Shown here: positions 9,670 to 15,125 of the stretch, one piece after another
Layout of the letters: every line of letters begins with the position of its first letter
Numbering within the stretch: the stretch's first letter is position 1
Assembly (NCBI GenBank): GCA_030156535.1
Contig: JASGMJ010000006.1
Span: 1-64,000, forward strand
DNA: 64,000 nucleotides
DNA from: Candidatus Sumerlaeota bacterium
GTDB taxonomy: Bacteria; Sumerlaeota; Sumerlaeia; SLMS01; JAHLLQ01
Reading direction: 5' to 3'
Made by a program: the position numbers and the translations under genes
The notes under the pieces: generated by a model
What the model saw: only the letters and a program-made list of their open reading frames with translations
What the model was told of the DNA's origin: nothing
Database searches by the model: none

Positions 9670-9897
9670 TGATCTCGCCTCTTCGAGGCGTACCACGTTC
9701 CTTCGGCATGACCGCTTCCTCTTCGTTTCAACACCGGGTCTGTGTTAAGATGTGCTCGGCCACAATGCAACTTCTCATAAACGACAAGCACTGAAGCGCT
9801 GGGTTACGTTCAGCCGTCCCCGCTGGGCTCCCTCCCATTCTTGACTGCACGTTTCCAGCGCTGGGGTTCTGTCCTTCCGGAGCTGGCCACGTCACGC

Positions 9898-14176: not shown

Positions 14177-14267
14177 GATGTTCGCCCCCTGCCGGGGTCG
14201 TGGTTTCTCTTCGCCGTCCACCCCGGCATAAATGCCGGGGCTGGGGTTGTCGGGCCCCTACCGGGGC
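14177..14267 (+). repeat. 91-bp three-hairpin repeat (REP-like), copy A1
   Basis: Identical by eye to 15035-15125; hairpins CCCCtgCCGGGG, CCCCGGCATaaATGCCGGGG, GCCCCtaccGGGGC. Confidence 0.93.
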
Positions 14268-14446
14268 CAAATGCGGAACGTTTGCCCACAGAGGGAGGCG
14301 GTCTGCCCCCGCGATTCATCCGCGTGGCATTCATGAATCCTTCCCTGTCTCCGCGGAGTCAGAGGCAAGGCGCAACGCACGGAGTGCCAGGCGATCATTG
14401 GGAGAAGCGACCTTCGCGACTCATCGAATCGCTCTTCAGGGCACAG

Positions 14447-14543
14447 GCGTCCCGGCAGGGACGCGACATCAATAGCCCCGCGTTTCAACGCGGGGGACGA
14501 CGGACGACAAGAAGCCCCCGGGCCCCGGCAGGGGTCCAACATG
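14447..14543 (-). repeat. diverged, inverted copy of the same three-hairpin repeat (copy B)
   Basis: GCGTCCCggcaGGGACGC - CCCCGCGtttcaaCGCGGGG - CCCCggcaGGGG - tccAACATG follows the hairpin order and boundary sequence of the reverse complement of A1/A2. Confidence 0.75.
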
Positions 14544-14552
14544 TCCGAGCGC

Positions 14553-15005
14553 TCAATCGAGAAAGAAACGCTTGTCGAACTCCACACCGCTCTTCACCAG
14601 CATCTCTTCGTATTCTTCGGCAAATGTGCGGCGCCGATGATGGGCTTCCTGATTGGCGATGTAGTGGAGAACCGTCTCTTTCTGCGAGGGACTGACCGTA
14701 AAAGCGCCGTATCCTTCCTGCCAATGGAGAACCGGGGAAGCCTTGGCCTCTCGGTTGTACCAACTCGACGCCCCCCCCTTGATTGCTTGGACAATCGTGG
14801 CAATATCGGGTTGAGAGCGCAGTTGGCAAAGAATGTGAACATGGTCGGCAACACCGTTGATGAGAAGCGCCGAGCCTCCATGATTGGCGATGATGCCGGA
14901 CATATAGGGAAAGAGAAGTTCGCGCGCCTGCGGGGTCAGGCAGGGCAGCCTGGCCTTTGTGGAGAAGACAACATGGTAGAGGAGCACGGTGTGGGTATGC
15001 GCCAT
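14553..15005 (-). mobile_element. REP-associated tyrosine transposase (RAYT; IS200/IS605-type Y1 transposase), 150 aa
   Basis: MAHTHTVLLYHVVFSTKARLPCLT..., LLINGVADHVHILCQL (HUH motif HVH), WQEGYGAFTVSPSQKETVLHYIANQEAHHRRRTFAEEYEEML: typical Y1 transposase. Confidence 0.93.
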
Positions 15006-15034
15006 GATGGTGAGCTGAAGGGTGAAGAAGATGA

Positions 15035-15125
15035 GATGTTCGCCCCCTGCCGGGGTCGTGGTTTCTCTTCGCCGTCCACCCCGGCATAAATGCCGGGGCT
15101 GGGGTTGTCGGGCCCCTACCGGGGC
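15035..15125 (+). repeat. 91-bp three-hairpin repeat (REP-like), copy A2
   Basis: Identical to 14177-14267; lies about 30 bp upstream of the RAYT start codon. Confidence 0.93.

Follow-up and report, generated by a model that had tools for sequence, protein, structure and literature searches.

A small transposase gene set among identical hairpin repeats raises two questions, namely which class of enzyme it encodes and what the repeats are to that enzyme. Such a locus lies in the window analysed here, the whole stretch of 64,000 nucleotides from a Candidatus Sumerlaeota genome. The initial annotation took the gene for a RAYT, and regarded two direct repeats as a bracket through which the whole unit could move or be lost.

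Class of the transposase

The reading frame of the transposase gene is intact as annotated, and its 150-aa product matched the Pfam family Y1_Tnp with an E value of 2e-21. When the protein was aligned with 22 relatives, the HUH residues H55 and H57 as well as Tyr115 showed no variation, which confirmed the catalytic tyrosine that the initial reading depended on, and the motifs DHVH, WQ and YIANQEAHH (Y---Q--HH) were recognized. The protein passed the curated IS200 model NF033573 (60.5, cut-off 55) and failed the curated RAYT model NF047646 (22.9 bits, cut-off 80). A structure search with its AlphaFold model (pLDDT 90) gave TnpA of ISDra2 and IS608 as the closest solved structures (E about 1e-9 to 1e-8), while E. 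coli RAYT 4er8 was a weaker match (E 3e-5). RAYTs proper make up class 2, with a Y---NP motif and GTAG-tagged REPs.

TnpA-Y1 subclass 1.2 is defined by the signature DH[IV]H, WQ and Y---Q--HH, a C-terminal domain of ~30 aa and a size of ~148 aa (Table 1 of Quentin et al. 2018, PMC6006769). Its members were described as kin of the IS200 transposases, with few copies per genome and no REP sequences, and as occurring mostly in Cyanobacteria and Bacteroidetes (PMC6006769). The window protein shares with the published subclass its size, HUH, WQ and Y---Q--HH motifs, C-terminal extension and low intragenomic copy number and identity, as the genome holds only two subclass-1.2 copies, 48-49% identical to each other. 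Judged by its sequence, the enzyme is a TnpA-Y1 subclass 1.2 member, i.e. an IS200/IS605 relative, and does not qualify as a RAYT as that class is defined. Class 3 of TnpA-Y1 (Planctomycetes, Acidobacteria), with NHVH, W[TA], YV[VI]xEQ and 178 aa, was also considered and rejected, the window protein having DHVH, WQ, YIANQ and 150 aa. It should be further pointed out that three loci (L261, L270, L262) carry a shorter Y1 group related to subclass 1.2 (KGASS...WQRGYG, no C-terminal extension), mostly without adjacent elements, which is possibly another undescribed subclass.

Three-hairpin repeats in the window

The features of the locus are collected in Table 1. The two direct repeats annotated initially are identical at 91/91 positions and start 858 bp apart. 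In folding, the 91-bp repeat surpassed 197-199 of 200 dinucleotide shuffles (z about -2.6), and its central palindrome was found at two places only within the window, where 0.05 matches were expected. The diverged inverted copy that had been noticed next to the stop codon was recovered as well, with 73% identity to the direct repeats over 14451-14542. Recent movement or conversion is a plausible source of the identity of the outer copies. In the copy at 15035 the hairpins are, in order, CCCC-TGCC-GGGG (left, L), CCCCGGCATAAATGCCGGGG (central, C) and GCCCC-TAC-CGGGGC (right, R). The window's repeats lack GTAG, no GT[AG]G foot was found on flanking repeats, and the hairpins have no T-runs; among the elements examined, the commonest foot was TC ahead of a GCCCC or GTCCC stem.

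Table 1. Positions of the transposase gene and its three-hairpin repeats in the window
Feature	Position	Strand	Remarks
Transposase gene, HUH type, assigned to TnpA-Y1 subclass 1.2	14553..15005	minus	150 aa; HUH = H55-V-H57; catalytic Y115; C-terminal extension
B element (L-C-R three-hairpin repeat)	15035..15125	+	Canonical 5' flank, directed away from gene; position agrees with the geometry seen across phyla
Hairpins of the B element at 15035-15125	L 15044-15055, C 15079-15098, R 15112-15125	+	Order L-C-R
B' element, diverged L-C-R repeat	14447..14545	minus	Canonical 3' flank; sub-threshold RF01687 match
Extra B element	14177..14267	+	Identical to 15035-15125; B(+)/B'(-) pair with 14447-14545
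B'-gene-B unit	14449..15125	.	End-to-end alignment with nearest homologous unit of congener G001

A permissive Rfam search with the inverted copy returned RF01687, the Acido-Lenti-1 RNA (26.8 bits, E 0.0012). Because this score lies below the curated cut-off of 37, membership of the window copies in RF01687 rests on their architecture and their relatives. The published model comprises 46 nt and spans the C and R hairpins of L-C-R, with which it agrees in sequence and structure. Weinberg et al. 2010 reported the family in Acidobacteria and Lentisphaerae, classing it as non-coding RNA and considering it 'probably' an RNA (PMC2864571). In the literature that was searched, neither the name Acido-Lenti-1 nor the accession was connected with transposases. 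A truncated copy of the RF01687 type (family A, below), consisting of the C-R half with 84% identity, also lies in the window at 9787-9830, ~4 kb from the transposase locus.

Two enzyme/repeat families in one genome

A whole-genome search gave 19 dispersed RF01687 matches above the cut-off. At the purQ-purL site, the second subclass-1.2 gene, C2:88408 (+), is ringed by RF01687 at C2:87908(+), C2:88299(-) and C2:88911(+), in the order repeat (+), repeat (-), gene, repeat (+). Since RF01687 matches surround this second gene, the genome contains two enzyme/repeat families. Family A is the canonical RF01687 with about 20 dispersed copies; family B/B', the window type, has eight full copies plus fragments. 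The window-type element recurs on C3 and C11 with the same boundaries, and the wider occurrence that the initial annotation called for was thereby established.

Gene-less B(+)/B'(-) pairs were located at C3:112672-112939 and C11:59200-59506. Their spacers are unrelated, and a search for a spacer conserved at the centre of B/B' pairs found none; movement of the pairs is hence not favoured. The element at 14177-14267 is extra and pairs with B' in the same B(+)/B'(-) manner as these gene-less copies. Across species the repeats at the two gene ends are inverted and directed outward; here this canonical bracket consists of B' and B. As with BIMEs, the direct-repeat bracket is a by-product of B/B' alternation.

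In terms of function this organization is analogous to that of REPtrons and BIMEs, with a gene between inverted repeats and dispersed copies that often form inverted pairs. As in TnpA-REP/RAYT REPtrons (E. coli rayT), inverted palindromic repeats stand on both sides of a low-copy HUH-Y1 gene and are scattered over the genome, and two repeat types alternate, B/B' here and Y/Z in E. coli. These features, including the BIME-like B/B' pairs, would agree with a classical RAYT/REP system (TnpA-REP, class 2), and the fold is the same as that of 4er8. However, we regard that system as very improbable here, since the protein fails the curated RAYT model and has Y---Q--HH instead of Y---NP, and since its repeats lack the GTAG foot and consist of three hairpins in ~95 nt, compared with the one hairpin of 20-50 nt in E. 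coli REPtrons. The initial annotation was therefore right in assuming an IS200/IS605 relative with cognate repeats elsewhere in the genome, but the RAYT class has to be replaced by subclass 1.2.

Survey of subclass-1.2 loci

By protein-alignment query alone we fetched 80 named loci, which represent about a dozen phyla, and then scanned them with Rfam. RF01687 exceeded the Rfam cut-off in 38 loci, and either RF01687 or the L-C-R design was present in 62. Five of the seven Bacteroidota loci in this set had L-C-R, none of which had been reported earlier for Bacteroidota. Typically, the gene is preceded by one opposite-strand copy, ~50 bp from the start codon, and followed by a second copy on its own strand, ~55 bp past the stop. 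Among RF01687 copies within 100 bp upstream of the start codon, 19 were minus and one plus (most at 45-58 bp), and within 100 bp downstream of the stop 26 were plus and three minus (mostly at 45-74 bp).

Without recourse to Rfam, the flanks were also scanned with a structural descriptor that requires the three hairpins in order, with 19-28 nt between L and C and 9-14 nt between C and R (threshold 17). Because the elements are near-palindromic, its first version often matched the reverse strand too, and the final counts come from a stricter version. With the latter, 91 of 126 non-redundant subclass-1.2 genes had L-C-R within 200 bp (53 of them at both ends), compared with 5/828 shuffled flanks; no adjacent element was detected at about 28% of the 126 genes. 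The structural descriptor found no L-C-R at the sampled class-2-like Y1 loci or at E. coli rayT; an IS200-like gene scored 14, and another Y1 gene of the window's genome (L264) scored exactly the threshold of 17. Whereas subclass 1.2 was published as lacking REPs and as mostly cyanobacterial and Bacteroidetes, most members in our sample, which had no cyanobacterial ones, carry cognate repeats, and members were found in many further phyla. The L-C-R flanks of 91/126 members thus correct the 'no REPs' statement, which is a description of the subclass and not a sequence criterion.

Repeats and enzymes also vary together. Flanks of the same locus were far more alike than flanks of different loci (46 of 78 exceeded the 99th percentile of a null taken across loci), and protein distance tracked element distance (Mantel rho 0.27, p <= 0.0005). 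In a sample of 41 genomes, consisting of the window's genome and 40 relatives, RF01687 and a subclass-1.2 gene occurred together in 20 and were both missing from 15 (Fisher p 7.5e-6, with kinship ignored). Three genomes had RF01687 without the gene and three the gene without RF01687, most of these six being incomplete drafts. RF01687 was absent from G034 (ten Y1 genes, mostly ~330-aa) and G023 (two), which have only longer Y1 genes of other classes, and no L-C-R was found at the loci sampled from them. The hairpins could instead shield a selfish gene as transcription terminators or insulators and have spread by chance, as they are GC-rich and sit tight at both gene ends, and REPs are known to affect transcripts. 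We give this explanation almost no credence, in view of the missing T-runs, the complex three-hairpin design, the dispersal away from the gene and the cognate co-variation with the protein.

Tandem element arrays with periods of about 72-129 bp surround the transposase gene in L123, L120, L124 and L179. G028 (19 RF01687 matches) and G014 have RF01687 with no subclass-1.2 gene detected, representing orphan repeats or incomplete assemblies. About 109 RF01687 copies were counted in G012 (L233-L247), several with an inverted terminal hairpin 15-25 nt upstream, which brings the unit to four hairpins, and one group is embedded in a longer repeat. Element ends could not be fixed in this copy-rich genome, where many copies lie within longer shared repeats and the terminal hairpin precedes several of them. 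A subclass-1.2 locus with L-C-R elements was also found in L165, a record titled Klebsiella pneumoniae MAG whose taxonomic label looks wrong. Over the part compared, the protein of a Sumerlaeota record (L158) is identical to that of G017, which belongs to the same class as the window's genome; this fits the origin of the window from Candidatus Sumerlaeota.

Structure and covariation of the element

The L-C-R element measures ~90-100 nt and consists of the left hairpin, 20-28 nt, the central hairpin followed by CTA/CTG/CTT, ~12 nt and the right hairpin. The consensus fold predicted from 37 diverse elements contained exactly three hairpins. Compensatory double changes occurred in 14 of 16 pairs, with 116 double-changed cells against 28 expected in shuffles, although this covariation is partly built in because the descriptor that picked the elements demands Watson-Crick stems; how much the stems differ between loci does not follow from that requirement. 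The covariation signal collapsed when pairing partners were slid by one column. G-T pairs filled 3 cells of the 37-element table and A-C mismatches 13, although the descriptor penalises both alike. Since pairing in RNA would favour G-T, this weakly suggests selection as DNA.

The loop of both hairpins, L and R, is mostly a TNC-type triloop that reads in the same direction; its reverse complement was found in 2 and 1 of 145, and the two hairpins are identical in just 9/145 elements. CT directly follows 81 of about 145 L stems and 60 R stems. With their loops in direct orientation, L and R are arranged like the ends of an IS200/IS605 element and not like an inverted repeat.

It has to be asked whether the repeats are mainly structured non-coding RNA, with the transposase as just a carrier or neighbour. 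The strong covariation and the published opinion cited above would agree with that proposal. Nevertheless we judge it unlikely, because the repeats are placed in a fixed, inverted and outward manner at one transposase subclass in many phyla and are absent from other Y1 genes, the conserved structure reaches beyond the 46-nt model, tandem arrays occur, and wobble pairs are not favoured, contrary to selection at the RNA level. Because the same repeats flank a dedicated transposase gene, RF01687 is best read as a mobile DNA repeat of the subclass-1.2 transposase family and not as an RNA family.

Presence and absence of units between congeners

Congener G001 has one close homologue (67% identity) at a different genomic site, where the unit spans G001:C13:37398-38059. 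The alignment covers B'-gene-B and not the direct-repeat bracket (Table 1). At the window's site, G001 has 525 bp in place of the 1548 in the window's genome, and the unit is missing. The purQ-purL site of the A unit likewise measures about 100 bp in G001 and 1546 in the window's genome. Reciprocally, the site where G001 has 1429 bp, its own unit included, has 129 bp in the window's genome (G000). With three filled/empty sites in both directions, the presence or absence of a unit at each of these loci is independent of the other two; the sites are resolved to loci and not to nucleotides because the congeners are 70-80% identical. The same pattern would also be expected from horizontal gain or loss. 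The empty sites that the initial annotation suggested looking for do exist at locus level, and its idea of whole-unit mobility agrees with the presence and absence of the locus between congeners, while the direct-repeat pair did not hold as the bracket, the conserved unit being B'-gene-B. The position of the gene unit varies between congeners here; mobility of tnpA-REP is not reported (PMC8266576). The purQ-purL site of G004 (L231, G004:C197:8000-13500) holds a subclass-1.2 gene too; this gene and its counterpart in the window's genome are only 51% identical, although their flanks have 74-79% DNA identity. This site may be an insertion hotspot.

The changing location of the unit also speaks for another proposal, namely that the locus is an insertion sequence of the ordinary IS200/IS605 kind whose ends are unusual, as do the passed IS200 model and the nearest solved structures. 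IS608, ISDra2 and their gene-less derivatives share with our system the fold, the catalytic residues and two hairpins (L, R) in direct orientation per element. Even so, an ordinary insertion sequence is quite improbable. The two subclass-1.2 copies of the genome are divergent, no tnpB adjoins the window's gene, the ends form an inverted outward pair around the gene, each element has an extra central hairpin, and gene-less copies are dispersed in large number. Moreover, high-copy, near-identical units with fixed TTAC-like targets were not seen.

Proposed mechanism

From the observed enzyme identity, geometry, covariation, co-occurrence, enzyme-repeat co-variation and unit presence or absence between congeners, we consider it probable that the locus is a REPtron-like system based on subclass 1.2, whose HUH enzyme would process its cognate hairpin repeats as single-stranded DNA; binding, cleavage, transposition and strand choice are inferred steps. 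Both IS200/IS605 TnpA and TnpA-REP bind hairpins in single-stranded DNA, a 5' guide sequence sets the cleavage site and a single tyrosine makes the cut, which TnpA-REP places at CT (PMC8266576). When a strand becomes single, as lagging-strand template or in repair, a dimeric subclass-1.2 enzyme would bind the L and R hairpins on it, whose TNC triloops point the same way, much like the two ends of an IS200/IS605 element. Tyr115 would then cut near the stem foot, perhaps between C and T, and the enzyme would join the ends. Such joining would spread single L-C-R elements, and the whole B'-gene-B unit would move more rarely.

More tentatively, and with less than even confidence, each L-C-R could be a complete minimal single-strand transposon with L and R as ends in direct orientation, moved in trans by the subclass-1.2 enzyme, the central hairpin being cargo or regulator. 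If so, subclass 1.2 would stand, as a functioning intermediate, between IS200/IS605 transposons and domesticated REP systems, and the RNA family as published would comprise its non-autonomous descendants. By association, an uncharacterised transposase subclass gains a cognate DNA substrate, and its range is widened to many phyla. Reassignment of the Rfam family to mobile DNA repeats would affect the annotation of many genomes. Because cognate enzyme/substrate pairs can be read directly from the loci, the transition from IS200/IS605 to a REP-maintaining enzyme becomes directly testable. Finally, the CGTC-tagged REPs (Di Nocera et al. 2013, PMC3733652), compared by description only, differ in being single hairpins reported without a dedicated transposase; they resemble our repeats in being palindromic and dispersed, and some of the phyla are the same; in addition, the hairpins of family A are preceded by ..AGTCGTC.
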